In this document: positions 8,296 through 25,787 of the stretch, one piece after another
Numbering within the stretch: the first letter of the stretch is position 1
How the letters are laid out: the number at the start of each line of letters is the position of its first letter
Source of the DNA: a virus
Length of the DNA stretch: 27,938 bases
Reading direction: 5' to 3' (one strand)
IMG/VR virus record: IMGVR_UViG_3300025102_004520
Coordinates: 1-27,938 of that record
Translations under genes and position numbers: made by a program
The notes under the pieces: generated by a model
Databases searched by the model: none
Seen by the model: only the letters and a program-made list of their open reading frames with translations
What the model was told of the DNA's origin: nothing

Positions 8296-8652
8296 ATGGA
8301 AAAGGAAGAAAGACCTTGGGGACATTATATTGTTACTGACCAAGGCAATAGATATAAAGTTAAAAGTATTCATGTAGATGCTGGTGCAAGTCTTTCTCTG
8401 CAGAAGCATTATCATAGAGCAGAGCATTGGGTTGTAGTAGAGGGAACTGCCAAGGTAGAAGTGGATGGTAAAGAAACCTTAATATATGAGAACCAAAGCA
8501 CCTATATACCATTAGGAGCAGTTCATAGATTATCTAATCCAGGCAAAGTTCCATTAAGGATAATTGAAGTATCAAGTGGATCTTATCTAGGAGAAGATGA
8601 TATAGAAAGATACGAAGATAATTATGGACGTTTAGATAAAGAACAATGTTAA
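8296..8652 (+). CDS. Mannose-6-phosphate isomerase-type cupin (type II PMI C-terminal domain)
   Basis: This 118-residue single-domain cupin has RPWGHY (6-11), the metal-binding motif [11 protein letters not shown] (His38, His40, Glu43), [13 protein letters not shown] (His77) and the ending [22 protein letters not shown]. This is the signature of the C-terminal isomerase domain of ManC/AlgA-type bifunctional enzymes, here without the GDP-mannose pyrophosphorylase half. It should interconvert fructose-6-P and mannose-6-P, the entry to GDP-mannose and hence GDP-fucose made by gmd and fcl about 11 kb downstream. It follows purS by 2 nt and overlaps the next gene by 7 nt. All metal ligands are present; its real substrate is inferred. 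Confidence 0.82.
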
Positions 8653-10967: not shown

Positions 10968-11131
10968 AAACTATTACAATTGAAGAGTATGCAAAAGATC
11001 CTGATGGTATAATCAGGAGAGTAGAGAATGGAGAAAAGATTGCAGTCACTGATGGAAAGGTGAGTGCTGTCTTGACTCCTTCTGACGAATACGTTAAACT
11101 TCATACTACAGGAGGAAGTGCAGAAACTTGA
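10964..11131 (+). CDS. Orphan Phd/YefM-type antitoxin-like small protein
   Basis: This 55-residue ORF starts inside the talC stop (ATGA). The sequence MKTITIEEYAKDPDGIIRRV followed by ENGEKIAVTDGKVSAVLTP has the pattern of the Phd/YefM N-terminal domain: a beta strand, a helix, the V-x-x-G-E/K-x-I/V-x-V-T-x-x-G turn and another strand ending in AVLTP. That domain binds DNA and forms dimers. The toxin-binding C-terminal helix is very short here and no toxin-like ORF is adjacent. It may be a free autorepressor or an anti-host-toxin protein; both are inference. Its last codons overlap the next promoter's -35. Confidence 0.65.
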   Translation: MKTITIEEYAKDPDGIIRRVENGEKIAVTDGKVSAVLTPSDEYVKLHTTGGSAET

Positions 11132-11156
11132 CTTCCTTCTTCAAAACCCTTATAAT
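11128..11156 (+). promoter_or_regulatory. Sigma70-type promoter before the 11180-11758 gene set
   Basis: TTGACT at 11128-11133 is followed after 17 nt by a perfect TATAAT at 11151-11156. The predicted RNA start is about 11163, leaving a short leader before the ATG at 11180. This is one of the best promoter matches in the window. Confidence 0.78.
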
Positions 11157-11179
11157 ATAAACGTCCACCATTCAAAGCA

Positions 11180-11383
11180 ATGACGCTTACCACAAAGTTT
11201 AAGAAAGACATAAGCACTCTTCGAGCTGCTGCAAACAAGGAGATTTATCTGGATGTAAAGAAACCAAAGTTGTTTAAAAAGGTTAAGAAATATTACGAAA
11301 GAGAGGAAATGATACAGTTTACAGGCGAACCGTTAGAAGATTATGATATACTAATGGAAGTTATAGCAGAGGATTTGAATTAA
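11180..11383 (+). CDS. Small basic phage protein, function unknown
   Basis: This 67-residue soluble protein has a lysine-rich first half (KFKKDISTLRAAANKEIYLD; KKPKLFKKVKKYYERE) and an acidic end (EPLEDYDILMEVIAEDLN). It is the first gene behind a strong host-type promoter, so it is probably expressed early. The stop overlaps the next start by one base (TAATG). I recognise no family. Confidence 0.66.
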   Translation: MTLTTKFKKDISTLRAAANKEIYLDVKKPKLFKKVKKYYEREEMIQFTGEPLEDYDILMEVIAEDLN

Positions 11384-11616
11384 TGGATGTTCTTCTTGAA
11401 AGATTTCCTTATCGTTATGTTGAGAACGGCACTCTAGAAAACGGTAAACCAGATTTCCGTATCCAAAAGATGGATAGTTATTCTCCTAGATGGAAGGATA
11501 TGTATCTATGTGATAATGGTATGCAGTTGACTCAAGCTATGGAAGACTTTGAATACACCAAATGGTTAGATCCTTCTGGTGTTCCTGCTTATACTAAAGG
11601 TGATTATTATGAGTGA
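11383..11616 (+). CDS. Small protein, function unknown
   Basis: This 77-residue protein is rich in aromatic and charged residues (RFPYRYVENGTLENGKPDF; MDSYSPRWKDMYLCDNGMQL), with a soluble, mixed alpha/beta look and one cysteine. It starts on the last base of the previous stop and overlaps the next gene by 8 nt, so the three form an early-type operon. No known family. Confidence 0.66.
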   Translation: MDVLLERFPYRYVENGTLENGKPDFRIQKMDSYSPRWKDMYLCDNGMQLTQAMEDFEYTKWLDPSGVPAYTKGDYYE

Positions 11617-11758
11617 TGAATTGACTCGCATTGCTAATGCTCTAGAAAGAATTGCAGACTTCTATGAAAAGGGTCTGCATGTCGATATAGATCATGCACA
11701 TATTGATGATATTGGTGAGATACATGGGGATGTAGTAACTCATCCTAAACAATTCTAA
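11609..11758 (+). CDS. Small His/Asp-rich protein, function unknown
   Basis: This 49-residue ORF begins MSDELTRIANALERIADFYE and ends in a His/Asp-rich stretch (HVDIDHAHIDDIGEIHGDVV) that might bind metal. It overlaps the previous gene by 8 nt and is last in this short operon. The N-terminal helix LTRIANALERIADF is a pattern common in tiny phage proteins. It is supported by overlap and composition only. Confidence 0.58.
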   Translation: MSDELTRIANALERIADFYEKGLHVDIDHAHIDDIGEIHGDVVTHPKQF

Positions 11759-11769
11759 ATAAATAAATA
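11758..11769 (+). promoter_or_regulatory. Tandem candidate late promoter (overlapping AATAAATA copies)
   Basis: Two overlapping AATAAATA copies at 11758-11765 and 11762-11769 follow the stop of the previous gene, 26 nt before the start at 11795. They match the NATAAATA late motif in the expected place. Confidence 0.5.
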
Positions 11770-11794
11770 AAAATACGAATTTTAAATTAAGATC

Positions 11795-12058: not shown

Positions 12059-12080
12059 ATCTGAAGACATATCTTATTAA

Positions 12081-12109
12081 GGAGGGGTTGCATAAACCCC
12101 TCTTTTTTT
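12081..12109 (+). terminator. Rho-independent terminator
   Basis: GAGGGGTT (12082-12089) pairs with AACCCCTC (12095-12102) across a 5-nt loop, followed by a run of seven T (12103-12109). It is a textbook intrinsic terminator that separates the small-gene region from the glycan operon. Confidence 0.9.
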
Positions 12110-12136: not shown

Positions 12137-12970
12137 ATGATAGGTTTTAATGCACTGGGACATCTTGGGAGATTGGGAAATCAGATGTTCCAATTTGCAG
12201 CACTCAAAGGTATTGCTCGAAATAGGGGATATGAGTACTGTATTCCTCCGTCGCAGATGCAAGGAGAATGGAAAGATCATCATCAATATTATAATGCTGT
12301 AGGAACTGGTGTAGCACAACATCAATTACTACAACCATTTAAGTTAAGTAATACTAATCAACTTAACTTACAGTTTATAGATCAAGATAGACCTGTGGTT
12401 CAGGAGGGAAGTTTTACATTCAATGAAGATCTATTTAATAACTGTCCTGACTGGGTAACTATACAAGGATTCTTTCAGACAGAAAAATACTTTAAGCATA
12501 TACGTGATGAGTTAAGAGGAGACTTTGAGTTTAAGGAGGATATATTAATTCCTTGTAAAGAGATGATGGCAGAGATACAGGAACCAGTATCATTACATAT
12601 CCGTAGGACAGATTATATCAGCAATCCTAATCACAGTGCATTAGGATTAGAATATTATGAGAAAGCATTGAAGCAATTTGATAAGAGATCTACTATTGTT
12701 GTTTTCTCTGATGATCCAGAGTGGTGTAATGAGCAGGAGTTGTTTGCTTCAGATAGATTCTTGGTTGCGGAAAAGAATAGTACTTATGTTGACATGTGTT
12801 TGATGACTTTATGTAAGGGTCATATCATTGCTAACAGTTCATTCTCTTGGTGGGGTGCATGGTTATCAGATAGTGAACAGGTAATAGCACCTTCTGGATG
12901 GTTTGCTGGATCTAATAATGAGCAGATGGATACGAGTGATATTGTTCCTAAATCATGGAGAGTATTATAA
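12137..12970 (+). CDS. GT11 alpha-1,2-fucosyltransferase
   Basis: This 277-residue protein has the N-terminal GRLGNQMFQFAAL motif (11-23), the GDP-fucose-binding HIRRTDY motif (154-160) and the ANSSFSWWGAWL motif (232-243), the three hallmarks of family GT11. These enzymes transfer fucose from GDP-fucose to galactose, making Fuc-alpha-1,2-Gal (the H-type structure). The GDP-fucose makers gmd and fcl are in the same operon. Length (about 280-300) is normal. It heads the operon behind a terminator/promoter junction, and its stop shares one base with the start of the GT6 gene. The linkage specificity is a family inference. Confidence 0.88.
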   Translation: MIGFNALGHLGRLGNQMFQFAALKGIARNRGYEYCIPPSQMQGEWKDHHQYYNAVGTGVAQHQLLQPFKLSNTNQLNLQFIDQDRPVVQEGSFTFNEDLFNNCPDWVTIQGFFQTEKYFKHIRDELRGDFEFKEDILIPCKEMMAEIQEPVSLHIRRTDYISNPNHSALGLEYYEKALKQFDKRSTIVVFSDDPEWCNEQELFASDRFLVAEKNSTYVDMCLMTLCKGHIIANSSFSWWGAWLSDSEQVIAPSGWFAGSNNEQMDTSDIVPKSWRVL

Positions 12971-13689
12971 TGAAAGTTGCTATTACTTTTATAGGAACTA
13001 ATAGGTATCTTGATTACTTACCCAAGTATTATGAGAATATTGAAAAGTATTTCTTACCTAATACTGAAAAGGTTATACTTGCATTCACTGATGGTGAGTT
13101 AAACGATACACCAGACAATCTTAAAGTATATCCTCAAGAGCATTTAGATTGGCCATTCATTACTCTTAAAAGATTTGAGATTATTAATAAGGCAAGAGAT
13201 GTTATTGATGAGTGTGATTGGTTAGTCTTTATAGATGCTGATGCTATACCTGTAACTACTATTACTGAAGAAGAGTTCCTTACAGATAAACCTTTGTTTG
13301 GTGTTCATCATCCATGTCATTACCTTGGTATGGATCCACATACTAAAGCACCAGGTGCATATGAACAGAATCCAAAGTGTGAAGCATATGTAGATGTTTC
13401 TAAATCACTTCCTCCTGTTTATTGGCAAGGATGTCTGTGGGGTGGTAAAGTTCCTGAAGTATGTGCTATGATAGATGAGTTGGAGGCAAGAGTTAATCGT
13501 GATTTGGAAAATGATATCGTTGCTGTGTGGCACGATGAAACACAGATCAATAGATACTTTTTAGAAAGAACACAAGATGTTCATACCTTTGGTCCTTCGT
13601 ATGCATTTCCTGAAGTATTTGAAGAGCATTGTAACTTTTCTCCAAAAATAGTTCATCTTGCAAAAGATAATTCTAAATACCATCAGTGA
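12970..13689 (+). CDS. GT6-family (ABO/alpha-1,3-Gal(NAc)-type) glycosyltransferase
   Basis: I use the ATG at 12970 (TAATG overlap) rather than an in-frame ATG five codons upstream, giving 239 residues. GT6 signatures are present: the DxD motif in FIDADAIPV (Asp89, Asp91), the acceptor-site segment YWQGCLWGG (151-159), and AVWHDETQINRYF (185-197) with Glu190 in the place of the catalytic glutamate. It lacks a membrane anchor, like the bacterial members. GT6 enzymes add Gal or GalNAc alpha-1,3 to a galactose that is often already fucosylated. The neighbouring GT11 gene supplies just that acceptor type. A GT6 member in a cyanophage has been noted in the literature; the donor sugar here is unknown. 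Confidence 0.83.
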   Translation: MKVAITFIGTNRYLDYLPKYYENIEKYFLPNTEKVILAFTDGELNDTPDNLKVYPQEHLDWPFITLKRFEIINKARDVIDECDWLVFIDADAIPVTTITEEEFLTDKPLFGVHHPCHYLGMDPHTKAPGAYEQNPKCEAYVDVSKSLPPVYWQGCLWGGKVPEVCAMIDELEARVNRDLENDIVAVWHDETQINRYFLERTQDVHTFGPSYAFPEVFEEHCNFSPKIVHLAKDNSKYHQ

Positions 13690-13698
13690 ATTGAATCT

Positions 13699-14364
13699 AT
13701 GAAAAATTGTAATCGCTTCATTCGTAATTCTGATCTGCCAGAAGCAATGAGAATTAGAGATGAGAATGGTTGGATACAGAAGTATCCTCATAAGACAAGT
13801 TTAGGTAATCATTGGAACAGAGGTGAAGCATTACTCAAGTGGGTATTTGCATTGCGTAACTTTGGTATAGGAGAGAGTGGTAAGAAAGTAATTGATCTAG
13901 GAACTAACAATGGATGTGTCCCTCATGTAGTTGCAGACTGGGGTAATGAAGCAATTGCAATGGACTATATTAATCCAGATTATCCACCCCCACCATCTGC
14001 ATGTGAGATGTTAGTAGCAGATGCTTTTACATGGTTGCCAACATTAGAAGAAGAAAGTATAGATGTTGTATTTGATATATGTGCAGTTCATTTATTTGAT
14101 ATTACACATGATGAAGAGATTGGTAACTATGGATTGCTTAAAATTGGAAAGTTGGTTCATAGGATTTTAAAGCCAGGTGGGAGATTTATTATTTCATCTG
14201 ATGCTGGTGATGAAGATCATGGTGAGTTCTCTAATGCAGAAACATTCATTAAAATGATTGAGAAGTCTGGTTTGAAACTAACTTCTCCTTTTGATTACAC
14301 AGTAGATGATGATACCTTCTACAGTAAACCCTATAAAGTTGTTACATTAGTATTTGAAAAGTAA
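13699..14364 (+). CDS. Class I SAM-dependent methyltransferase
   Basis: This 221-residue protein has methyltransferase motif I VIDLGTNNGC (64-73), a following acidic strand end (AIAMDYINPD), a motif IV-like DVVFDICAVHLFD, and a post-motif segment HRILKPGGRFIISSDA typical of class I enzymes. It sits in the glycan operon, so a small sugar or polysaccharide O-methylation role is likely but not shown. The stop shares a base with the next start (TAATG). The N-terminal 60 residues (RFIRNSDLPEAMRIRDENGW) are outside the core fold and may define the substrate. Confidence 0.8.
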   Translation: MKNCNRFIRNSDLPEAMRIRDENGWIQKYPHKTSLGNHWNRGEALLKWVFALRNFGIGESGKKVIDLGTNNGCVPHVVADWGNEAIAMDYINPDYPPPPSACEMLVADAFTWLPTLEEESIDVVFDICAVHLFDITHDEEIGNYGLLKIGKLVHRILKPGGRFIISSDAGDEDHGEFSNAETFIKMIEKSGLKLTSPFDYTVDDDTFYSKPYKVVTLVFEK

Positions 14365-15062
14365 TGGATTTAAAAGATTTGGAATTGGTCACTGCTCTTG
14401 ACCAAAGTTTTTATGATGGTTTTAACTCCTTTATGTTAAGTTCAGACTTGAAGGTGTTTGGAAAACTATTAGCACGTACTCAATTATTTGATAAGGTAAA
14501 AGATATACCAGGTGATATTGTTGAGTGTGGTGTATTTAAAGGAACAGGTCTCTTTACTTTCTTAAAGTTGAAGAGATATTTTTGTCCTAATACGGGAAAG
14601 AAAGTTATAGGATTTGATTTCTTTGATTCAGAAAAGTTGACTTCTAGTTTATCTGAGCAGGATAAAGAAGCAATGACCACTCTATTTGAGGGTAGAAACT
14701 TCCAACACGAGTCCTCCTTCCAAACTGAACTAGACTATACTATCCGTAAGTCTGGTTTTGAGGATCATGAATATGAACTTATAGGTGGTGATATATCGAA
14801 AACTGTGGTAGAATTTGTATCACAAAGACCTGGTGCAAAGATTTCACTATTGTATCTGGATTTGGATTTAGATGCCCCTACTTATGATACTCTTGTAGCA
14901 TTGTGGGATAGGGTTAGTAGTGGTGGTATAGTTGTCTTTGATGAGTATGCTTTCCATAACTGGTCTGAATCTGTTGGTGTTGATAGATTCTTTGCTGATA
15001 AAGATATTAACATTGAATCTCTTAACTTTGTTGCACCTTCTGCTTACGTTGTAAAACCATGA
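14364..15062 (+). CDS. TylF/MycF-type O-methyltransferase
   Basis: This 232-residue protein has DIPGDIVECGVFKGTG (47-62) as the SAM-binding motif, and LLYLDLDLDAPTYDTL followed by GGIVVFDEY, which is the TylF-family signature including the metal-binding acidic residues. TylF enzymes O-methylate deoxysugars in macrolides, and relatives are widespread in marine bacterial polysaccharide clusters. Here it probably methylates a sugar of the phage-directed glycan. It overlaps the next gene by 4 nt. This is a different subfamily from the methyltransferase just upstream, so two distinct methylations are likely. Confidence 0.85.
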   Translation: MDLKDLELVTALDQSFYDGFNSFMLSSDLKVFGKLLARTQLFDKVKDIPGDIVECGVFKGTGLFTFLKLKRYFCPNTGKKVIGFDFFDSEKLTSSLSEQDKEAMTTLFEGRNFQHESSFQTELDYTIRKSGFEDHEYELIGGDISKTVVEFVSQRPGAKISLLYLDLDLDAPTYDTLVALWDRVSSGGIVVFDEYAFHNWSESVGVDRFFADKDINIESLNFVAPSAYVVKP

Positions 15063-16429
15063 ACAAACTTGTTATATTTGATCTAGATGGTGTTCTTATT
15101 GATAGTAGGGACATGCATTATGATGCCCTTAACCGTGCTCTTGCAAAGGTAGATGAGAAGTATGTAATAACAAGAGAAGAACACTTAAGTGTTTTTGATG
15201 GTCTTCCCACTACACGAAAACTAGAACTCCTTACAGAGAAGAAAGGTTTACCTGTAGTTGAGTATGATACTATCTGGCAGGATAAGCAAACAGCAACTCT
15301 GGATATATTCTCTGAATTAAAACCAGACTATGAGTTGATGCATTACTTCCAGCAACTCAAAGAGAAAGGATATAGTATTGCAGTTGCAAGTAACAGTGTG
15401 CGTAATACTGTTAAACTTGTTCTACTTCGTTTAGGATTACTAGAGTTTGTTCATTACCACTTAAGTAATGAAGATGTATTCAGAAGTAAGCCATTCCCTG
15501 AAATGTATTGGCGTTGCATGATAGCATGTAATGCTCTTCCAAAAGATACTGTTATCTTTGAGGACAGTCACATTGGTAGACAGGGTGCATTAGATAGTGG
15601 ATCTCATCTAATTGCTATTGAAGACAGACCTGATCTTACACAAAGTAAGATTGATAAGGTCTTTGAGATCTTTGAAACTAAAAAAGTAACACACATCCCT
15701 TGGAAATCAGAAAAAATGAATGTTTTAATTCCTATGGCAGGTGCTGGCAGTCGTTTCGCACAAGTTGGATATAGTTTTCCGAAGCCTTTAATCGAGGTAA
15801 ATGGCAAGCCAATGATACAAGTGGTGCTAGAGAACCTGAATATTGAAGCAAACTTTACTTTTGTTGTTCGTAAAGAGCATTATGAAAAGTATAGTCTACA
15901 ATATCTTCTCACTTTGATTGCACCTAATTGTAACATTGTTCAAGTTGATGAATTGACAGAAGGATCTGCTTGCACTACGATGTTAGCGAAAGAATTTATT
16001 AATAATGATGATCCTCTTCTTCTTGCAAACTCCGATCAGTTTATGGAGTGGAATAGTAATGAGTGTCTTTACGCTTTTAATGCTGATGGTATTGATGGGG
16101 GTATATTAACCTTTAAGGCAACTCACCCTAAATGGTCTTATGCTAAAGTTGGTGCTGACGGATTTGTATCAGAAGTAGCAGAGAAGAAACCAATCAGTGA
16201 GGATGCAACAGTAGGTGTATATTATTGGAAGAAAGGTTCTGACTATGTTAAGTATACAGAGCAGATGATTGAAAAGGATATTAGAACCAATGGTGAGTTT
16301 TATATTTGTCCAGTATTTAATGAAGCGATTGCTGATGGTAAGAAGGTAAGGATTAAAGAGATTGAAAGAATGTGGGGTATCGGAACTCCCGAAGATCTAT
16401 CTTATTTCTTGGAACATTATAAAGGATGA
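15059..16429 (+). CDS. HAD phosphatase-nucleotidyltransferase fusion protein
   Basis: This 456-residue two-domain protein has residues 1-210 as a HAD phosphatase with DLDGV (Asp8, Asp10), the motif II serine in ASNSV (Ser111), Lys144 (SKPFPEMY) and EDSHIG (Glu168, Asp169). Residues 220-456 are a sugar-phosphate nucleotidyltransferase with PMAGAGSRF (225-233), FPKPLIEVNGKPM (240-252) and an ANSDQ metal site. The pairing suggests dephosphorylation and nucleotide activation of one sugar, as in heptose-type pathways, but the sugar is not identifiable. An internal ATG at 15716 falls exactly at the second domain, so a separate transferase could also be made. It overlaps both flanking genes by 4 nt. 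Confidence 0.85.
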   Translation: MNKLVIFDLDGVLIDSRDMHYDALNRALAKVDEKYVITREEHLSVFDGLPTTRKLELLTEKKGLPVVEYDTIWQDKQTATLDIFSELKPDYELMHYFQQLKEKGYSIAVASNSVRNTVKLVLLRLGLLEFVHYHLSNEDVFRSKPFPEMYWRCMIACNALPKDTVIFEDSHIGRQGALDSGSHLIAIEDRPDLTQSKIDKVFEIFETKKVTHIPWKSEKMNVLIPMAGAGSRFAQVGYSFPKPLIEVNGKPMIQVVLENLNIEANFTFVVRKEHYEKYSLQYLLTLIAPNCNIVQVDELTEGSACTTMLAKEFINNDDPLLLANSDQFMEWNSNECLYAFNADGIDGGILTFKATHPKWSYAKVGADGFVSEVAEKKPISEDATVGVYYWKKGSDYVKYTEQMIEKDIRTNGEFYICPVFNEAIADGKKVRIKEIERMWGIGTPEDLSYFLEHYKG

Positions 16430-16893
16430 AACTAATTGCCCATCGGGGAAACACGCATGGACCTGATGCTAAACAAGAAAACAATCCTGATTACATTGAC
16501 AAATGTTTATCGGAAGGGTATGATGCAGAGATTGATGTACGGTATGATTCTTTAACCACTGTCTTTTGGTTGGGTCACGATGAACCTCAATACAAAGTAA
16601 GTTGGAAGTGGATGGCAAACCGTTCTGAACTTCTATGGATACATTGTAAAGACATCACAACTCTACATGAGTTTACCAAGTATGAACATGCAGGGTATCA
16701 GTATTTTTGGCACGATCAAGATGACCATACTCTAACCAGTAATAAGTATATCTGGACATTTCCAGGTAAACCTTATACTCCAAAATCCATAATGGTTATG
16801 CCAGAATGGAATACAAAAATAAGTAATCTAAATGATTTGAGAGCAGTTAATTGTTATGCAATCTGCAGTGACTATGTTGCACATCTACAATAG
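16426..16893 (+). CDS. Short glycerophosphodiester phosphodiesterase-like protein
   Basis: This 155-residue protein shows the PI-PLC-like/GDPD barrel signature: IAHRGN (His6, Arg7), AEIDVR (Glu35, Asp37) and LGHDEP (His51), the general acid/base and metal ligands. GDPD proteins usually run 230-300 residues, so this is a shortened barrel, and the later strands (CKDITTLHEF, YFWHDQDDHTLT) are compact. Related short proteins occur in capsule and LPS clusters of marine bacteria. It might trim or add glycerol-phosphate groups. No frameshift is seen, so the short length looks native. Confidence 0.72.
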   Translation: MKLIAHRGNTHGPDAKQENNPDYIDKCLSEGYDAEIDVRYDSLTTVFWLGHDEPQYKVSWKWMANRSELLWIHCKDITTLHEFTKYEHAGYQYFWHDQDDHTLTSNKYIWTFPGKPYTPKSIMVMPEWNTKISNLNDLRAVNCYAICSDYVAHLQ

Positions 16894-16902
16894 AGGAATT
16901 TA

Positions 16903-17487
16903 ATGGCAAACGTTTTTACTAGAGACTTGAACGATCCTATGGATGATGTTCAACAAAAGATTAAGGATAAGATGATTGAGGTCACTAAGCTTGAGTTGAC
17001 TGATAAAGCATCCTATCATGCCTATGAAGAAGTATATCCATTTCTATTGGATAAGTTTATAGGTAAGAAGTGTAATATGTTAGAGGTTGGTATGTCATGG
17101 GGTGGAGGGATGCAAATTCTTTCTGAACTTTTCCCTGATTCCAATATCTATGGGGTGGATTGGGATGTATCTTTACTACGAATTGATACAAAAAACTGGT
17201 CTAATATGACTATCTTTGAGTCAGATCAACGTGATCCTACTCTTGCTGATAAACTTCCTATGTTAGATTTTGTGACAGAGGATTGCTCACATCAGATGCC
17301 AGATTCTATCAGAACATTTGAGATACTAGAACCAAAGTTAAATCCTGGTGCAGTCTATGTGATTGAAGATGTGTATCCACAGTTTTGGGATGCTTATTGT
17401 GCAGATGGAAGATTTGATATGTATGATGTAACCCATGTAAAAGATAGATCAGATGATCGTCTTGCTGTTTATAGGAAACCTGAATGA
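16903..17487 (+). CDS. SAM-dependent methyltransferase (cephalosporin-hydroxylase-like type)
   Basis: This 194-residue protein has MLEVGMSWGGGMQIL (59-73) as the SAM motif, YGVDWD as the strand-2 acidic end, and DFVTEDCSHQMPDSIRTFEI then GAVYVIEDVYP as the metal-site and late motifs. This arrangement is common to small methyltransferases of antibiotic and LPS clusters (CmcI-like/type 24). A good ribosome-binding site GAGGA lies at 16893-16897. It is the third methyltransferase in the operon and overlaps the next gene by 4 nt. Glycan methylation is inferred from the setting. Confidence 0.78.
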   Translation: MANVFTRDLNDPMDDVQQKIKDKMIEVTKLELTDKASYHAYEEVYPFLLDKFIGKKCNMLEVGMSWGGGMQILSELFPDSNIYGVDWDVSLLRIDTKNWSNMTIFESDQRDPTLADKLPMLDFVTEDCSHQMPDSIRTFEILEPKLNPGAVYVIEDVYPQFWDAYCADGRFDMYDVTHVKDRSDDRLAVYRKPE

Positions 17488-18236
17488 GAATAGCAGCATG
17501 TTTCGCAGGACAACCACGATTCATTAATGAATGTGCTCCTAGCATACTACAAAATGTATTCAAGGATCAGCAGGTAGATGTCTTTGCACATCTATGGTTC
17601 TGTGATGAACTTCATAATGAAACCTTTAAGTATGGTGGAGACGGTGGATGGGAAGGTTATAGAATACCCAAGACTGCTGTTGATGATTTTATCCGTCACT
17701 ATAAACCAGTTGATATTAAAGCAGAACCTAGTGTTCACTTCTATGATCCTTACATGGAAGAAGGATTTGATATACCTTTGAATAAGTATTGGGGTGGTGG
17801 TAATAATGAACCAGATTATATGCCAAGACAGATAGACAGAACGCTATCTAATTTCTATAGTCAGAGTGAAGCATGTAAGTTGAAGTCACTCTATGAGTAT
17901 AATAATAAGTTTAAGTATGATTGGGTGTTTAAGTTCAGACCAGATGTGCAGATTCATAATCAAATCAACCTAGAAGATTATTCGCCTCATGCTTTTAATT
18001 GCATGGCACATACCTGTGGGTTTGATAGTCACATCAATGACTGGTTTGGGTTTGGTGGGTCTGATATAATGGATGTATTCATGGGTGTATTTCCTATGTT
18101 CCAAAGAATATTTGATTTGACTAAGTATAATAATGAAGGAGCATGGGACAATGAAACATTACATGCTCAAGCTCTACACCAAATGGGTATAGAGATACAG
18201 AAACATCCCTTTGCTCTTACCGTACCAAGGTTATGA
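17484..18236 (+). CDS. Putative glycosyltransferase (SGQPR-type family)
   Basis: This 250-residue protein opens with IAACFAGQPRFI, like a group of glycan-cluster proteins beginning with a GQPR motif, then has VDVFAHLWF, WVFKFRPDVQIH (a DxD-like RPD site near residue 152) and DWFGFGGSDIMDVF with WDNETLHAQALHQMG near the end. This is a GT-A-like arrangement in which RPD may bind a metal-nucleotide sugar. There is no membrane segment. It overlaps both neighbours by 4 nt. The family is recognised loosely; donor and acceptor are unknown. Confidence 0.66.
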   Translation: MRIAACFAGQPRFINECAPSILQNVFKDQQVDVFAHLWFCDELHNETFKYGGDGGWEGYRIPKTAVDDFIRHYKPVDIKAEPSVHFYDPYMEEGFDIPLNKYWGGGNNEPDYMPRQIDRTLSNFYSQSEACKLKSLYEYNNKFKYDWVFKFRPDVQIHNQINLEDYSPHAFNCMAHTCGFDSHINDWFGFGGSDIMDVFMGVFPMFQRIFDLTKYNNEGAWDNETLHAQALHQMGIEIQKHPFALTVPRL

Positions 18237-19201
18237 AAATTGTTATCTGGGGTCATCCCCTACATTCACACACCCATTCATATGTCCATCAAGGATACTA
18301 TGATGGGTTTAAAAGTTTAGGTCATGAGGTATATTGGTTTCATGATGATGACTATCCAGAGGACTTTGATTTTACTAATACCTTATTCATAGGTGAAGGA
18401 TTTGCTGATAAGAAGATACCTATCAATGATAGCAGCACATACTTCATCATGTATCTTCCTGACCCAAGGAAGTATGATGGTGCAAAGAGACTTGTTGATG
18501 TAAAACTAACTGCTACTAATTTTAAGGATCATATTATTGAGTGGTCTTTTGATGAGAGTAAGTGTCAGAGTATGGGACCAAGTGTATGGTTTGAACCCAA
18601 GACTAATGAATTAATTAAGTTGAAGAATGATTATATTGATGTAGAGATACCTGACTATGATAAGATGTATATTAGTTGGGCAAGTAATCTACTACCAGAG
18701 CAGATAAACTTTGATGATATGTATATGGAAAGAGAGAATGCCATATACTTCTGTGGAACTATCTCCCCTCATGGTGTATGTGAGAACTGGTCTAACTGGG
18801 AACCCTTTATACAACAGTGTTCAGAGAATGGTATAGACTTTCATTGTAATGATGTATGGTCGAATCCACTATCATTCGATGAAGTTCAGAAACAGGCACA
18901 GAAATCTATTCTTGGTGTCGATATTCGCAGTAAAGAACATGTAAGACAGAGATTGGTAACGTGTAGAGTCTTTAAGAATATAAGTTATGGTCACTTGGGT
19001 ATGACTAATTCAGAACAAATCTATCAAGAGATGGATGGGAACTGTATTTACAATGAAGATCCTGCTGCATTGTTTCATGAGGGGATGGCAAATAGAGAAA
19101 ACTATGATATGATACGTAAAGGTATGCAATACGTAAAAGAGAACCATACATACATCAATCGTTGTAGTTCGGTTCTTAAGATCTTTGAGGAAGGTGAATG
19201 A
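18233..19201 (+). CDS. GT-B-like glycosyltransferase
   Basis: This 322-residue protein has an N-terminal Rossmann-like half ([39 protein letters not shown]) and a C-terminal half containing [32 protein letters not shown] and [19 protein letters not shown], resembling the donor-binding domain of CgeB/GT-B-type transferases, where a C-terminal segment reads V-F-K-x-I-S-Y-G. No membrane anchor is present. It overlaps the previous gene and gmd by 4 nt. Donor and acceptor cannot be read from the sequence. Confidence 0.68.
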
Positions 19202-20226
19202 AGACTGCCCTTATTACAGGTATCACAGGACAAGATGGTTCTTATCTTGCCGAATTTTTATTAGAAAAGAACTATAGAGTGCATGGATTGATTCGTAGAA
19301 ACTCCACATCAGATGGAACAGATAGGATCAATCATTTACTCAAGCTTCCGTCTATCACATTACACTATGGTGATATGACGGACTTTGCTTGTCTTGCTGA
19401 ATTGATTAAAGAGGTTCAACCAGATGAGATATACAATCTAGCAGCACAGAGTCATGTAAAGGTATCATTTTCTAATGCTTTATATACTGCTGATGCTAAT
19501 GGTCTAGGAACTCTTCGTATCCTTGAGACTATTAAACTTCTAGGTATGGAAAAAACTACTAGATTTTATCAGGCAGCAACGTCAGAGATGTTTGGTGAGG
19601 TGCAGTCAATACCACAGAGAGAAGATACACCTTTCTATCCACGTTCTCCTTATGGTGTAGCAAAGTTATATGCACACTGGATCACCAAGAACTACCGTGA
19701 AGCATATGGTATGTTTGCTTGTAGTGGTATTCTATTCAACCATGAGTCTCCACGCAGAGGTGAGACATTTGTAACTCGTAAGATTACAAAGACTCTTGCA
19801 GAGATTAGAAATGGTAAGAGAATACTCCCATTAGAACTAGGTAATCTAGATGCCAAGAGGGATTGGGGTCATGCAAAAGATTATGTAGAAGCAATGTGGT
19901 TGATGCTACAGCAAGAAGAACCAGAAGATTTTGTTATTGCAACAGGTCAACAACATACTGTAAGAGAGTTTGTTGATGCGGCTTTTGATTATATGGGATA
20001 TAGTATAGAATGGGTTGGAGAAGGATTAAAAGAAGTTGCTAAAGACTATGGCACAGGAGAAGTGCTAGTTAAGATTAACCCAGAGTTTTATAGACCTGCT
20101 GAAGTAGATTCTTTGGTGGGTGATTGCACTAAAGCAAAAGAAACATTGGGGTGGAAACACAACTATTCTTTCACTCAATTGGTGGAAGAGATGTGTAAAT
20201 ATGATTTAGAAAATACGAGGGATTGA
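19198..20226 (+). CDS. gmd: GDP-mannose 4,6-dehydratase (Gmd)
   Basis: This 342-residue extended short-chain dehydrogenase has NADP-binding [12 protein letters not shown] (8-19), RRNST, and the catalytic set Thr128, Glu130 (ATSEMFG), Tyr152 and Lys156 (YGVAKLYAH), followed by [20 protein letters not shown]. It converts GDP-mannose to GDP-4-keto-6-deoxymannose, the first committed step to GDP-L-fucose (or GDP-rhamnose and related sugars). All active residues are present and the length is typical. It is directly followed by fcl, completing the GDP-fucose branch, and the GT11 user is in the same operon. Confidence 0.95.
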
Positions 20227-20228
20227 TT

Positions 20229-21149
20229 ATGGAAAAGAATGCTACTATCTTCGTTGCAGGACACAAAGGTCTTGTAGGTTCTGCAATTGTTCGTAAACTT
20301 AAAGAGCAGGGACATAATAATATTATTACTGCTACTAGGCAAGAGTGTGATTTAATAGATCCTAATCAGGTCAAAGATCTCTTTGAAAAGAATAGGATTG
20401 ATTATGTTTTTGATGCTGCTGCTAAAGTAGGTGGTATCAAAGCAAACGATACTTATTCAGCAGAGTTTATCTATCAGAACACAATGATTCAGACTAACCT
20501 GATTCATTATGCTTACAAGTATTTTGTTAAGAAGTTCTGCTTTTTGGGATCGGTTTGTATCTATCCAAAGTATGCACCTACACCTGTGAAAGAGGAGTCT
20601 CTACTGTGTGGTGAGTTGGAACCTACTAATGAAGGATATGCTGTTGCAAAGATACACGGCATTGAGATGTTGAAGATGTATAATAAGCAGTATGGATTTA
20701 AGGGTGTATCTATTATGCCTTGTAATCTATATGGTATGGGAGATAACTTCCATCCAGAGAACAGTCATGTGATTCCTGGTATGATCAGAAGATTCCATGA
20801 AGCAAAGGGAGATACTGTTGAGTGTTGGGGTGACGGAACTCCTATGAGAGAGTTTATGTATTCTGATGATATAGCAGATGCTTGTGTATTTGCTATGAAT
20901 AATTATGAGAATGCAGAGTTAATTAATGTTGGTTCGGGTGAGGATGTATCTATCAAAGAACTTGCTGAAACTATTGCTTCTGTAACGGGGTATAAAGGTG
21001 AGATAGTTTGGGACACAACTAAACCAAATGGAACACCAAAGAGACCACTAGACTATTCTAAAATCTCTGCACTAGGTTGGAAACCAAAGCATAAATTAAG
21101 AGAAGGACTTGAGAAGTCTTATCAGTGGTTCTTGGAGAATTGCGTCTAA
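20229..21149 (+). CDS. fcl: GDP-L-fucose synthase (Fcl/WcaG)
   Basis: The ATG at 20229 is preferred over an upstream TTG because it lies 2 nt after gmd and gives the usual N-terminus, 306 residues. NADP-binding IFVAGHKGLVGSA (7-19) is followed by the active site FLGSVCIYP (Ser108, Cys110), YAVAKIHG (Tyr137, Lys141) and HPENSHVIPG (His180). The enzyme epimerises and reduces GDP-4-keto-6-deoxymannose to GDP-L-fucose. The epimerase cysteine and histidine are both present, so it should make fucose rather than stop earlier. The stop shares a base with the next start (TAATG). Confidence 0.94.
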   Translation: MEKNATIFVAGHKGLVGSAIVRKLKEQGHNNIITATRQECDLIDPNQVKDLFEKNRIDYVFDAAAKVGGIKANDTYSAEFIYQNTMIQTNLIHYAYKYFVKKFCFLGSVCIYPKYAPTPVKEESLLCGELEPTNEGYAVAKIHGIEMLKMYNKQYGFKGVSIMPCNLYGMGDNFHPENSHVIPGMIRRFHEAKGDTVECWGDGTPMREFMYSDDIADACVFAMNNYENAELINVGSGEDVSIKELAETIASVTGYKGEIVWDTTKPNGTPKRPLDYSKISALGWKPKHKLREGLEKSYQWFLENCV

Positions 21150-21961
21150 TGAAAGTAACATTTGTTTCTGCACTCTTTGATATCAATAGAGTTGATGGTC
21201 GTAAATGGGAAGAGTATCTTAAGTGGTTTGAGATCACTCTTAAGTTGAGAGTTCCTATGGTCTTGTTTGTCAACAGGGACATGCAAGAGTATATTGATGA
21301 GAGAAGAGGAGATATGTTCAGTGATAATGAGTATCTAAAAACTCAAACTCTGTATCAGACTGTAGAAGATATACCTTATTATGGATTGAAGGATCAGATA
21401 CAGGAGATATTAGATTCAGATCAGTATAAAAAGGATATGGCAGATCCTGAAAGAATAGAATGTAAGCAAGCAATGTATCCTATCATTCAGTATTCTAAAT
21501 TTCCTTGGCTTACACAAGCAGCAGCAATGAATCCACATGGGTCTGATTATTTCTTTTGGTTAGATGCTGGTGGTTCAAGATTCTTTGAGGACTATGATCT
21601 AACACAGAACTATCCTAGTGAAGAAGCAAAGAAAGCATTAGATGATATGGGAGATAGTTTTTTGCTTCAGATGAACACAGAATACTATACTGATCTTGCG
21701 AATGCAAAGACATTAAGCACTGATTATCTTTACGATAATAGGTCTTATGTGTTAGGATCTATGTTTGGTGGTCATAAGAAGTCATTATTCAGAGTATGTG
21801 ATATGGTTCACGATGTTCTGATGAATGATATGATTGCAAACAACACTATTAATAATGAACAGATAGCATTGGGATACCTTATTAAGAAGTATCCTGATGA
21901 GTTTTCTCTTTATGAGAGAACCAATCAAAAACACATGGCACTTTTTCACGAATTAGGATGA
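21149..21961 (+). CDS. HtrL/YibB-type putative glycosyltransferase
   Basis: The protein is 270 residues from the ATG at 21149 (TAATG overlap). It opens with VTFVSALFDINRVDGRKWEE and EITLKLRVPMVLFVNRDMQE, the style of the HtrL_YibB family found in LPS loci, with a GT-A-like aspartate site DYFFWLDAGGSRFF (about residues 131-144) and a conserved-looking GSMFGGHKKSLFRV region. The family is generally classed as of unknown function but glycosyltransferase-like. It overlaps the following GT4 by 4 nt. Confidence 0.7.
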   Translation: MKVTFVSALFDINRVDGRKWEEYLKWFEITLKLRVPMVLFVNRDMQEYIDERRGDMFSDNEYLKTQTLYQTVEDIPYYGLKDQIQEILDSDQYKKDMADPERIECKQAMYPIIQYSKFPWLTQAAAMNPHGSDYFFWLDAGGSRFFEDYDLTQNYPSEEAKKALDDMGDSFLLQMNTEYYTDLANAKTLSTDYLYDNRSYVLGSMFGGHKKSLFRVCDMVHDVLMNDMIANNTINNEQIALGYLIKKYPDEFSLYERTNQKHMALFHELG

Positions 21962-22911
21962 AAGTATCAATAGTCGGACCAGGTATTATGCCTATCCCTC
22001 CTACAGGGTGGGGAGCAGTAGAGATTCTAATATGGGATCAGAAACTAGCATTAGAAAAATTAGGACATGAGGTTGACATTGTTAATACTCAAAGTCCTGT
22101 TGAGATTTTATCTCAAGTAAACAAGTTTAGACCAGACTTTGTTCATATACAGTATGATGATTTTATTGAACTCTATCCTTATATCCAATATCCTCGTGCT
22201 ATTACAAGTCACTTTGGATATCTTGAACAGACTAATAAATGGGACTATTATGGGGAACGGATTGCCAAACCATTTGGTAAGATAAAACCAAATGTATTCT
22301 GTTTGTCAGATGGTATTGCTGATACTTATCTTATAAATTTAGGCATTCCTCATGAAAATCTTTTTGTAACTCCTAATGGTGTTAATGTAGGTAAGTTTAG
22401 AGTAGAGACTATTCCTGAAAGATTATCTGATAGTATCTACCTTGCTAAGATTGATTATAGAAAGAGGCAACATATGTTCCAGTCAATAAGGAACCTATAT
22501 TATGCAGGTAATACTGCTGACCCTAGATTTGATACAAGTAATAATTATCTCGGTGAGTGGTCAAAGGAAACATTATATAATGACTTGACAAAGTATGGTA
22601 ATCTTGTGCTATTATCTGATGGTGAAGCACATCCTCTTGTATGTTTAGAAGCATTTGCTGCTGGTCTAGGAGTGGTAGTTAGTCAGTGGGCTGCTGCTAA
22701 TCTTGACACTAGTAAAGATTTCATCTCTGTTATACCAGAAGATAAAATATCTGATATTGAGTTTGTAGAGAATGAAATCCTACAGAATAAGTTCTATTCT
22801 ATCAATCATCGTCAAGAGATTCTAGATTATGCAAAGACATTTGATTGGACAGAGGTTGTAAAAAATTATTATATACCTGCTATGGAAACCATTATTGGAA
22901 ACTACAAATGA
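21958..22911 (+). CDS. GT4-type (GT-B) glycosyltransferase
   Basis: This 317-residue protein has an N-terminal acceptor domain with the loop PGIMPIPPTGWGAVEI (8-23), a central linker with VTPNGVNVGKF, and a donor domain with LLSDGEAHPLVCLEAFAAGLG, which carries the family EAFAAG glutamate in the E-x7-E position (Glu near 221 and 229). This is a short GT4. It uses an activated sugar to extend a glycan and overlaps both neighbours by 4 nt. Donor unknown. Confidence 0.85.
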   Translation: MKVSIVGPGIMPIPPTGWGAVEILIWDQKLALEKLGHEVDIVNTQSPVEILSQVNKFRPDFVHIQYDDFIELYPYIQYPRAITSHFGYLEQTNKWDYYGERIAKPFGKIKPNVFCLSDGIADTYLINLGIPHENLFVTPNGVNVGKFRVETIPERLSDSIYLAKIDYRKRQHMFQSIRNLYYAGNTADPRFDTSNNYLGEWSKETLYNDLTKYGNLVLLSDGEAHPLVCLEAFAAGLGVVVSQWAAANLDTSKDFISVIPEDKISDIEFVENEILQNKFYSINHRQEILDYAKTFDWTEVVKNYYIPAMETIIGNYK

Positions 22912-23765
22912 AAGTTGAACTAGGTCGTTATGAATTAGATTTGGACTTTGATCCAAGAGTAGAAAGGAACTCTACTGAAGAGATGATTCCTATTGAAGAC
23001 ATTGGTTTTGTTTACAACTGTGTGTTCAAGCAGAAGGCAGCATTTGTGCATTCAGTAGAAAGGATTAGAGAAGTATATCCTGACTCAAAACTATACTGTG
23101 TATCTGATGGTGGTTTGGATTACTCTTTCCTACAGGATGAGAATATTGAAACTACAATGGAAGATGATACTCTTTCTATACTGAAGCACATCAATCCTCA
23201 AACTTATAAGCAACCTGAAATGCAAGCTGCTATTAAGAAAGGTATTGCTGCAACACTTGATAGAGTAGAACGTGGTATTAAGTTCTGTGGCAATCCTGAA
23301 TGGACTTGTGTTACAGAACCTGACGTATTGATTCGTGGTAAGGTTAGTTATCCTAAAGGTGCTAAACTTCTAGGGTCAAGAGTAAACTATGCATGGTTAA
23401 GTGAAGAGTGTTTGGATATGTTCATGGGTATGAATGGTCTTCTAGGGGAGATTGAAGGTGCTATCCCTGTGGTTAGATGGGGTGCTGTTCCTGTTATATT
23501 CCATACTGAAACATTCTTGAAAGCACTGAAAGTTTATAGAGAGAATTTTGATCTACTTGATAAGTTGACAGAACATCATTATAATCCAGGTGTATTTGAT
23601 CTTCTATTTCCATTAGTCTTTGCACTGGTAGGAGAGGAAGAAGTTTACACTAGTGAGATTACAGAGTGTCTTCGTAACCCTCAATGGTATACTTCAGATC
23701 ATCCTGTAGTTCATCAGTATAGAGAATATTACGAAGATTCTGACTGGGTTTCCAAACCTTCTTGA
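22908..23765 (+). CDS. Putative GT-A-type glycosyltransferase
   Basis: The ATG at 22908 overlaps the preceding stop (ATGA) and gives 285 residues; the upstream in-frame extension lies inside the GT4 gene. Residues 30-75 (DIGFVYNCVFKQKAAFVHSV; YCVSDGGLDYSF) look like the nucleotide-binding half of a GT-A fold, and WTCVTEPDVLIRG offers a Glu-Pro-Asp-Val site in place of DxD. It has no transmembrane anchor. It is last of the 14-gene run before a new promoter. I have no firm family; glycosyltransferase is the best fit from fold pattern and neighbours. Confidence 0.6.
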   Translation: MKVELGRYELDLDFDPRVERNSTEEMIPIEDIGFVYNCVFKQKAAFVHSVERIREVYPDSKLYCVSDGGLDYSFLQDENIETTMEDDTLSILKHINPQTYKQPEMQAAIKKGIAATLDRVERGIKFCGNPEWTCVTEPDVLIRGKVSYPKGAKLLGSRVNYAWLSEECLDMFMGMNGLLGEIEGAIPVVRWGAVPVIFHTETFLKALKVYRENFDLLDKLTEHHYNPGVFDLLFPLVFALVGEEEVYTSEITECLRNPQWYTSDHPVVHQYREYYEDSDWVSKPS

Positions 23766-23811: not shown

Positions 23812-24567
23812 ATGAATCGTATCAAAGATTACGAGAAATTAAAATTTGATATTGATAGATGGTTGAAAGATTATTACTACTTTCATTCTATCAAATCCTT
23901 TGTAGTAGGAGTATCTGGTGGAATTGATTCCGCAGTTGTTTCTACCCTTTGTGCTGAAACAGGACTGCCTACTTATATCCTGACAATGCCTCTTCATTCT
24001 AAAGAAGGGAATACTGAATTGTCGGATTTACATGCTTATCAATTAGTTGAAAAGTATCCTAACGTAACCATAGTTAATGTTGATTTGTCCAAAACATATG
24101 ATGCATTCATGGATACTGTTTATGAAGGATTTACTATTAATCCTTTGGCAAATGCAAATACAAAGTCCCGTCTACGTATGGTAACTCTTTATCAGATTGC
24201 TGGAGCGATGGGTGGTATTGTAGTAGGAACAGGAAACAAGATCGAAGATTATGGAATTGGTTTTTATACTAAGTATGGTGACGGTGGCGTTGACATTGCT
24301 CCTATTGCTGATCTATATAAAACGGAAGTTTGGGAACTGGGGAAACGATTAGGAGTTGATGAGCGTATCATTGATGCCCTTCCAACAGACGGTTTGTGGG
24401 ATGATGATAGAAAGGATGAAGATCAGATCGGAGCATCCTATGAGCAGTTAGAAGAAGCAATGGAGCATAGAAGAGGACCAGCACTGGATATATTGGATGA
24501 GTTTAATAGAAAAAACAAACACAAAATGGAACCTATTCCTACATTTAAATTGGAGAAATTATCATGA
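23812..24567 (+). CDS. nadE: NAD synthetase, ammonia-dependent (NadE)
   Basis: This 251-residue protein has a PP-loop ATP motif VSGGIDSA (34-41), then SRLRMVTLYQIAG, VVGTGNKIEDYGIGFYTKYG (the pyrophosphate/deamido-NAD-binding loop) and IADLYKTEVWELGKRLG. It adenylates and amidates nicotinate adenine dinucleotide to NAD using ammonia; the glutaminase domain of the larger form is absent. NAD-making genes occur in several T4-like phages. Here it is expressed from its own promoter, next to a nucleotide-sugar dehydrogenase that consumes NAD; that link is inferred. It overlaps the next gene by 4 nt. Confidence 0.92.
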   Translation: MNRIKDYEKLKFDIDRWLKDYYYFHSIKSFVVGVSGGIDSAVVSTLCAETGLPTYILTMPLHSKEGNTELSDLHAYQLVEKYPNVTIVNVDLSKTYDAFMDTVYEGFTINPLANANTKSRLRMVTLYQIAGAMGGIVVGTGNKIEDYGIGFYTKYGDGGVDIAPIADLYKTEVWELGKRLGVDERIIDALPTDGLWDDDRKDEDQIGASYEQLEEAMEHRRGPALDILDEFNRKNKHKMEPIPTFKLEKLS

Positions 24568-25787
24568 CTAAAGTTGCAATGATCGGTGTAGGCAAGTTAG
24601 GTCAAGCCTGTGCAGAAGTTATGGCAGAGACTTATCCTCTTGTAGGATATGATGTTGCCCCACGGAGTCCAAAGAACTTTCCTATGGTTGATACCATGAA
24701 GGATGCAGTTGAGTATGCTGATATAATCTTTGTTGCTGCTCCTACTCCACACGATCCAAAGTATGATGGAAGAGAACCAACGGCACATCTTCCTAATAAG
24801 GACTTTGATTATAGTATTGTTAAAGGTATTCTAGCGGAAGTAAATAAGTTCTCTAATAGAAAGCAGTTAGTTGTATTAATCTCTACTGTTCTACCAGGAA
24901 CCACTAGGAGGGAGTTAGAACCACTTATAACCAATGCAAGGTTCGTTTATAACCCTTACTTAATTGCGATGGGTACAGTGGCATGGGACTTCACTAACCC
25001 AGAGATGCTCATGATCGGAACTGAAGATGGATCAGAGACTGGTGATGCAAAAGAGTTGATTGATTTCTATACACCCATGATGGAGAATAGTCCTCGTAAT
25101 GTGGTAGGAACATGGGATGAATGTGAATGTATAAAGATCTTCTATAACACATTCATATCTGCCAAGATCAGTCTAGTCAATATGATTCAGGATGTTGCAG
25201 AACGTCAGGGTAATATTAATGTGGATGTTGTAACCAATGCTCTTAAGGATTCTGATCAAAGAATCATGGGACCACGTTACATGAAGGCAGGTATGGGTGA
25301 TGGTGGTGCTTGTCACCCTAGAGATAACATTGCTCTACGTTGGATGTCAGAGAACCTTAAGTTAGGGTATGATCTCTTTGATTCTATTATGGAAGCAAGA
25401 GAAGTGCAGGCACGTAATCTTGCTGAGAGATTGGTTAGAACAGGGTTGCCTGTAGTAATTGTAGGTAAAGCATACAAACCTCATGTAGAATACGTTGCAG
25501 GATCATATAGTCTTCTTGTAGGACATTATGTTGAAAAGTTTGGAGTTAGTGTTTTCTATGATGATGATTATACTGGTGACAAACCACCTGAAGATCTAGG
25601 TGCTGCTGCATATCTATTAGCACATGATCCTGCTACTACTTTCTTGGGTTGCTTAGATCCTGATCCAGAGAAGCAACAGAAAGATATATTCCCAGAGGGT
25701 TCTGTTATCATAGATCCTTGGAGAAAATGCCCACCTATCAATGGATGCGATGTAGTTCACTATGGAAATACAAGACTTAATGGATAA
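24564..25787 (+). CDS. UDP-glucose/GDP-mannose dehydrogenase-family nucleotide-sugar dehydrogenase
   Basis: This 407-residue protein has an N-terminal NAD-binding domain (VAMIGVGKLGQACAEVM), then FVAAPTPHD and LVVLISTVLPGTTR, and a central helix ECIKIFYNTFISAKISLVN with the conserved Lys191 and Asn195. The catalytic cysteine is Cys250 in MGDGGACHPRDN, a divergent form of the usual GGSCFPKD. A C-terminal domain (GLPVVIVGKAYKPHV) completes the three-domain layout. The enzyme oxidises a nucleotide sugar at C6 to a uronic acid. The divergent active-site flanks mean the sugar (UDP-glucose, GDP-mannose or a HexNAc) cannot be named. The stop overlaps the GT25 start. Confidence 0.85.
   Translation: MTKVAMIGVGKLGQACAEVMAETYPLVGYDVAPRSPKNFPMVDTMKDAVEYADIIFVAAPTPHDPKYDGREPTAHLPNKDFDYSIVKGILAEVNKFSNRKQLVVLISTVLPGTTRRELEPLITNARFVYNPYLIAMGTVAWDFTNPEMLMIGTEDGSETGDAKELIDFYTPMMENSPRNVVGTWDECECIKIFYNTFISAKISLVNMIQDVAERQGNINVDVVTNALKDSDQRIMGPRYMKAGMGDGGACHPRDNIALRWMSENLKLGYDLFDSIMEAREVQARNLAERLVRTGLPVVIVGKAYKPHVEYVAGSYSLLVGHYVEKFGVSVFYDDDYTGDKPPEDLGAAAYLLAHDPATTFLGCLDPDPEKQQKDIFPEGSVIIDPWRKCPPINGCDVVHYGNTRLNG

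Follow-up and report, generated by a model that had tools for sequence, protein, structure and literature searches.

A recurrent GT11-GT6 gene pair in cyanophage glycan clusters and its possible B-like product

Two glycosyltransferase genes sharing a single base open a long glycan gene cluster of a cyanophage, and the question arises whether their products act one behind the other on the same glycan. They lie in a 27,938-base virus fragment from IMG/VR (IMGVR_UViG_3300025102_004520); this whole stretch is called the window below. By sequence, its first 11 kb match the T4-like cyanophage type, and of the 235 phage records matching this part, 218 are named Synechococcus, Prochlorococcus or Cyanophage. 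A first-pass annotation had read positions 12137-21149 as an ABO-type cassette, in which a GT11 alpha-1,2-fucosyltransferase prepares the acceptor of a GT6 transferase while gmd and fcl provide GDP-fucose. We propose, with moderate confidence, a conserved cyanophage glycan-capping cassette, in which GT11 and then GT6 would build a branched B-like trisaccharide on a galactoside of the host surface. GT6 genes of two cyanophages have already been published (PMC3961637). In the open PMC literature we found no report of the pairing, of how strict it is, or of the exchange of donor genes described below, and PMC10665884 and PMC8557907 do not show the pair.

Families, residues and predicted folds

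GT11 (12137-12970, plus strand, 277 aa) matches Pfam Glyco_transf_11 (PF01531) with E 4.8e-28 and 98.7 bits, the cut-off being 23.9. GT6 (12970-13689, plus strand, 239 aa) matches Glyco_transf_6 (PF03414) with E 4e-20 and 72.3 bits against a cut-off of 25; at 165 bits against the cut-off of 250 for NCBIfam NF041524 (Gltr_6), it is related to this narrower family and stays under its threshold. Base 12970 is common to the stop codon TAA of GT11 and the start codon ATG of GT6. The list of open reading frames (ORFs) also contains an ATG at 12955, and the start was set at 12970 because relatives begin there. Both family calls of the first-pass annotation, as well as the shared base, are thus confirmed. 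No loss of catalytic residues was seen. GT11 carries the HxRRxD motif as HIRRTDY, and alignments of GT6, including one with Bacteroides ovatus BoGT6a, show D89-A-D91 (the DAD metal motif), H188, D189 and E190 (HDE, with the catalytic Glu) and the C-terminal K232. The donor-pocket triplet, aligned with ABO residues 266-268, is QGC. It is found in every GT6 of the cyanophage main clade (see below) with a readable motif, and also in 8 of 80 bacterial loci.

The AlphaFold2 model of GT6 (pLDDT 80.5, pTM 0.84) predicts a GT-A fold of the BoGT6a/ABO type. Its top 17 matches in the PDB are BoGT6a chains, followed by human GTA/GTB and later by alpha3GT; against 4ayj it gives E 1.2e-19, TM 0.79 and rmsd 4.4. 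BoGT6a (4AYJ), the best match in sequence as well as in fold, aligns at the catalytic Glu and the C-terminal Lys. However, it has NAN, is metal-independent and uses GalNAc as donor (PMC3961637), and its triplet is AGG, whereas the window GT6 has DAD and QGC and falls on a different tree branch. Human GTA/GTB have the GT-A fold, DXD and HDE in common with the window GT6, but carry Leu/Met at 266 and Gly/Ala at 268 (PMC4202792) in place of Q and C, at about 24 percent identity. The moderate-quality model of GT11 gave 31 matches at E<=0.001, all weak and all to the fucosyltransferases POFUT1, NodZ or FUT8 (best E 2.1e-5, TM ~0.4-0.5); a sequence search of the PDB with GT11 returned no GT11 relative.

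The DXD-type GT6 of Parachlamydia is metal-dependent and the NXN-type BoGT6a metal-independent (PMC3961637). Since the window GT6 has DXD, it should, by the Parachlamydia precedent, need metal. In GTB, Met266 leaves GalNAc no room, and residue 268 is not decisive (PMC4202792). The bulky Gln in place of Met266 weakly hints at Gal as the likelier GT6 donor.

Distribution of GT6 and its pairing with GT11

A GT6 relative occurs in 71 of 50,697 phage records. Of these, 64 bear the names of Synechococcus or Prochlorococcus phages, 3 come from marine single cells, and the remaining four are 2 'uncultured phage' and 2 faecal 'Bacteriophage sp.' records. Such a distribution, chiefly in cyanophages, is therefore not due to chance. 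The two faecal records (L041, L042) were rejected as GT6 phages: their GT6 has NAN and groups with Gemmiger, the neighbouring frames look bacterial, and they are probably bacterial DNA. A quick tree was computed from 80 GT6 rows, with ABO as the root for display. In it, the cyanophage main clade groups with three sequences from metagenome-assembled genomes (MAGs) of Omnitrophota, Saprospiraceae and Pacearchaeota (99, starred), and BoGT6a with the bulk of bacterial sequences (95, starred). The GT6 type of Prochlorococcus phage P-SSM2 falls with megaphages, Parachlamydiales, Moorena and one cyanobacterium (84, without star), and its triplet is mostly AGG or AAA. As the main clade and the P-SSM2 type occupy separate branches, two or more GT6 lineages exist in cyanophages. 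Among 388 Cyanobacteriia genomes, GT6 was found in 2 and GT11 in 73; a host source of the phage GT6 is therefore not evident.

Several single loci deserve mention. The two Cyanobacteriia GT6 loci are L115:6001-6753 and L202, and Moorena bouillonii has a GT11 98 bases downstream of its GT6. The GT6 frame in L019:3986-4717 is broken by one stop, intact copies being present elsewhere. The Pacearchaeota MAG (L045:6001-6675) has a GT6 with DAD, misbinning being possible; PMC3961637 states that archaea have no GT6. Two 'uncultured phage' records of 642 and 635 kb contain an AGG-type GT6 (L037:9998-10657, L038:10001-10678); GT11 lies about 4 kb from GT6 in one of them, and none was found in the 20.7 kb of the other.

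Pairing was counted in samples of loci. Viral GT6 loci were sampled at 80 of 557 places and supplemented with 12 isolate or single-cell loci (92 in total), bacterial GT6 loci at 80 of 224 places, and the other locus samples at 80 of 564, 80 of at least 583 and 80 of 297 places. Dereplication at 90 percent together with a required flank of 1.5 kb on both sides reduces the viral loci from 92 to 44 and the bacterial from 80 to 60; the comparison samples, of 80 each, are reduced to 36, 34, 24 and 60.

GT11 is present in all 57 viral GT6 loci with 1.5 kb flanks (35/35 dereplicated, with a gap of at most 60 nt in 27). When 11 of the 12 isolate or single-cell loci, two of them P-SSM2-type, are added, it is present in 68/68, or 44/44 dereplicated; within these 44, the gap is at most 60 nt in 33, and GT11 lies upstream of GT6 in 38 and downstream in 6. 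After dereplication, all 36 main-clade GT6 loci have GT11 against 16 of 24 control loci anchored on GT25 (p=0.0003; the Fisher tests treat related loci as independent). The counts of 57 and 54 loci (35 and 36 dereplicated) differ by the use of domain bounds or stop-to-stop frames. A divergent sample of 32 loci, taken with no flank rule, contains 16 GT6 of QGC type, 15 of them with GT11, and 16 others, 8 of them with GT11. In bacteria, together with one archaeal MAG, 46 of 60 dereplicated GT6 loci possess GT11, 24 times upstream and 22 times downstream, on either strand. Cyanophage glycan clusters thus often contain a GT11, but for main-clade GT6 its presence is practically obligatory. This strict pairing fits GT6 acting on the product of GT11.

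A precedent exists in Escherichia coli O86, to which the first-pass annotation correctly pointed: its WbwK (GT11) and WbnI (GT6) combine, as in the window, an alpha-2-fucosyltransferase with a GT6, and WbnI makes blood group B (PMC4202792). Both WbnI and BoGT6a use Fuc-alpha-2-Gal acceptors (PMC4202792, PMC3961637). The likeness to an O86-type locus extends to the GDP-fucose genes of the window. There are differences as well, E. coli O86 being compared by description only. Bacterial GT6 enzymes are described as NXN (PMC4202792) whereas the phage GT6 has DXD, and the O86 pair serves a bacterial O-antigen whereas no Wzx, Wzy or initiating enzyme was recognised by Pfam among the 20 window proteins scanned.

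Could the two genes be neighbours only because these clusters are gene-dense and rich in GT11, the enzymes acting at different sites of a polysaccharide and GT6 having no need of fucose? We consider this rather doubtful, although part of the evidence suits it. GT25-anchored loci contain GT11 in 38 of 48 cases and GT6 in 5 of 48, GT25 stands directly behind GT11 in 18 of 64 GT11 loci, and the GT6 enzyme A3GALT makes an unfucosylated linear B determinant (PMC4202792).

A number of further observations weigh against successive action or against the capping proposal as a whole. Only 30 of 64 GT11-anchored loci have GT6, so that GT11 often occurs without it. P-SSM2-type GT6 is accompanied by GT11 in 48 of 69 loci (26 of 34 dereplicated), which is the base rate, and a universal tie between phage GT6 and GT11 was rejected on account of this type. 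GT11 is missing from 14 of the 60 bacterial GT6 loci and from the locus of one QGC-type GT6 (L478). In the viral sample of 80, five GT6 loci lack it and one has a fragment only; all six have less than 1.5 kb on one flank, at a contig edge, and were dropped. Confidence in the predicted GT11 structure is moderate (pLDDT 76.9). To our knowledge, no enzyme with the triplet QGC has been characterised, and the call of Gal as donor is therefore weak. To these the negative scan for Wzx, Wzy and an initiating enzyme must be added; flippase, polymerase and initiating transferase could be encoded elsewhere in the phage or supplied by the host.

Against mere neighbourhood, however, stands the constant presence of GT11 at main-clade GT6 loci (35/35 flanked; 36/36 against 16/24 in the control), the preservation of the pair in two gene orders and across exchanges of donor genes, and the similar tie in bacteria. 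The joint action assumed by the first-pass annotation thus receives comparative support from main-clade pairing, from bacteria and from the WbnI/BoGT6a precedent, weakened by the general frequency of GT11 at GT25 loci.

Other genes may serve the same glycan. A GT4-type domain stands in front of GT6 in one fused frame in 17 of the 92 viral GT6 loci (L164, L165, L168, L169, L180, L184, L186, L188-L195, L197, L198); a fused GT4-GT6 ORF in L022 has 555 aa. GT4, GT11 and GT6 are contiguous in 19 of the 92. Fusion and contiguity suggest that the GT4 enzyme works on the same glycan as the pair. The P-SSM2 cluster likewise has gmd, fcl, GT11, GT6 and GT25 in one stretch, but differs in its GT6 lineage, its AGG triplet, two genes between GT11 and GT6, and a galE-like neighbour. 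Such galE-like epimerases are found in 23 of 34 P-SSM2-type GT6 loci (sample L364-L443) against 4 of 36 main-clade and 3 of 24 GT25 loci. The query, from ACG-2014f, has UDP-glucose 4-epimerase as its best PDB match, and the enrichment gives a hint of donor supply.

Two sources of the sugar donor

The GDP-fucose genes named by the first-pass annotation are indeed there. The gmd gene (GDP-mannose 4,6-dehydratase; 19198-20226, plus strand) scores 539 bits against the cut-off of 415 for equivalog TIGR01472, and fcl (GDP-L-fucose synthase; 20229-21149, plus strand) has NF047922 (GDPFucSynFcl) as its best match at 444 bits, though under the cut-off of 500. The view of a cyanophage with all the steps holds for gmd, fcl, GT11 and GT6, but not for the second donor, as no gene making UDP-Gal or UDP-GalNAc was recognised by Pfam or NCBIfam among the window proteins scanned.

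In some sister phages, a relative of GDP-mannose 3',5'-epimerase (GME) takes the place of gmd and fcl. With donor labels assigned by a strict score rule, on which the absence of overlap depends, the 92 GT6 loci comprise 26 with gmd/fcl, 15 with GME, none with both and 51 with neither, many of these being fragments (p=0.005, related loci counted separately). Among 242 viral GT6 loci, redundant ones included, the numbers are 67, 25, 0 and 150. Two fusion loci (L023, L024) seemingly have a double supply; their 'fcl' reaches only 56 bits and is not counted under the strict rule. Among the 92 loci (not dereplicated), 10 have gmd-fcl-GT11-GT6 as an uninterrupted series and 9 have GME-GT11-GT6.

The same division is seen in ten complete GT6 phage genomes. 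Four have gmd over cut-off (P-SSM2, ACG-2014f, DSL-LC02, DSL-LC03), five a strong GME (Bellamy, S-PRM1, S-CAM9, SynMITS9220M01, S-8S55), none has both, and B23 has neither; P-SSM2 shows a weak GME-like match only, 30 percent over part. In the five GME genomes, GT11 is directly preceded by a gene with the annotation epimerase. The Bellamy and S-CAM9 proteins have the Arabidopsis GDP-mannose 3',5'-epimerase (2C59) as best PDB match (280 and 276 bits), and the proteins of the other three phages share 66-81 percent identity with that of Bellamy; no relative of the Arabidopsis enzyme was found in the window. The S-CAM9 alignment keeps the stretches SSACIYP and YGxEKL, which we take to hold the catalytic residues of GME. 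Mapped on a quick tree of 59 GT11 rows, the label GME+GT6 needs 4 changes, at least 3 of them forced by starred branches; the pair thus probably kept together through more than one exchange of donor supply. A parallel change in the GT11 motif (RRT or RRG) looked suggestive in the raw table and was rejected after tree-based pair tests (4 usable pairs, median p 1 and 0.5).

Outside GT6 loci, both supplies can coexist, as in L318 (L326 falls just short of the rule), and phage S-SCSM1 has GME, gmd, fcl and an alpha-1,2-fucosyltransferase together (PMC9602691). Of 388 Cyanobacteriia genomes, taken as the host background, 343 have gmd over its cut-off and 10, all of at least 4.2 Mb, have GME (E<=1e-60); the scans scored at most 5 candidates per genome, so both counts may be low. 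With gmd widespread and GME rare, GDP-fucose may be supplied by the host, GDP-L-galactose probably not. Tentatively, we regard it as possible that one enzyme pair makes two versions of a blood-group-like determinant, with L-fucose where gmd-fcl is present and with L-galactose where the plant-like GME lies directly upstream of GT11.

Gene string, proposed pathway and destination of the glycan

GT11 and GT6 open a string of 17 co-directional genes, all on the plus strand, with intergenic gaps of -26 to +46 bases. Since the string runs to 26595, the operon does not end at 21149, as had been annotated. The remainder consists largely of transferases, methyltransferases, a HAD-nucleotidyltransferase fusion, an NAD synthase and a nucleotide-sugar dehydrogenase. 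GT6 is followed by a class I methyltransferase (13699-14364; Methyltransf_31, 28.2 bits, cut-off 27), a TylF-like methyltransferase by Pfam (14364-15062) and, by profile scans, a HAD phosphatase fused to a sugar-phosphate nucleotidylyltransferase (15059-16429). Next come a short protein without Pfam match (16426-16893), whose DSL-LC03 relative (L039:4495-4974) is annotated as glycerophosphoryl diester phosphodiesterase, a methyltransferase-like protein with Pfam scores below cut-offs (16903-17487), a DUF7796 protein (17484-18236; 27.4 bits, cut-off 27) and another protein without Pfam match (18233-19201), whose DSL-LC02 relative (L032:208-1170) is annotated as glycosyltransferase. Behind gmd and fcl, profile scans identify an HtrL/YibB-family protein (21149-21961), the GT4-type glycosyltransferase that is fused to GT6 in some relatives (21958-22911), an NAD synthase family protein (23812-24567) and a GT25 glycosyltransferase (25762-26595). 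A protein without Pfam match (22911-23765) and a nucleotide-sugar dehydrogenase family protein under NCBIfam cut-offs (24564-25787) complete the string. Outside it, a profile scan found a cupin-type mannose-6-phosphate isomerase (8296-8652, plus strand), a possible feeder of GDP-mannose, and a cyanophage OMP domain lies at 26775-27164.

A terminator-like hairpin precedes the cassette (12079-12105, plus strand; 11 pairs, 5 G-C, then a T-run), a consensus match only, the scan having found 2 such sites against 1.4 expected by chance. About 830 bases (10968-11794) contain no ORF of 80 aa or more; a promoter-like site within them (11128-11156, 11/12 matches) is of a kind no commoner than chance in the scan. 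The ORF at 141-683 has two cysteine clusters, presumably resembling those of NdhI-type ferredoxin proteins.

Mean hydropathy over 19 residues peaks at 1.64 in the GT4 and at 1.60 in the NAD synthase, stays at or below 1.36 in the other proteins of the string and shows no clear membrane span. The cassette enzymes look soluble, so modification of the glycan would take place in the cytoplasm and export would be left to the host. We infer the following pathway. Phage Gmd and Fcl would convert GDP-mannose to GDP-L-fucose. In the cytoplasm, GT11 would put the L-sugar on a galactoside at the end of a host glycan, probably in alpha-1,2 linkage, though the GT11 family includes the alpha-1,3 enzyme HhFT2 (PMC4202792). 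GT6 would then add an alpha-1,3 hexose, Gal being likelier, to the same galactose, giving the branched B-like trisaccharide. In sister phages with GME in place of Gmd and Fcl, the same pair may place L-galactose, not L-fucose. During infection, such a remodelled cell surface most likely affects how other phages or grazers recognise the cell.

Alternatively, the cassette may decorate fibres or capsid of the phage's own virion. The soluble appearance of the proteins and the failure to recognise export genes among the window proteins scanned would agree with this, as would a tail fibre gene about 5 kb from the cassette in ACG-2014f. However, hli and ferredoxin genes are nearer downstream neighbours in several phages, and so many transferases and nucleotide-sugar genes would suit a large polysaccharide better. 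We consider decoration of the virion improbable. That the genes mainly drain host GDP-mannose and other NDP-sugars, the transferases being accessory, is very improbable: gmd, fcl, isomerase, nucleotidyltransferase, dehydrogenase and NAD synthase genes do occur in one stretch, but transferase order and overlap are conserved and the catalytic residues kept.

With the host-surface cassette, phage glycosyltransferases that were so far anonymous would gain named donors and an order of reaction that can be tested. The pair recurs in most related viruses sampled, some of which appear to supply a different rare sugar, and the genomic argument is that GT6, in phages as in bacteria, often works behind GT11. 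If the L-galactose version exists, most hosts would be unable to produce such a glycan by themselves, since few cyanobacterial genomes were found to contain GME. Isolates are available on both sides of the donor swap for asking what cyanophages do to the surface of their hosts.

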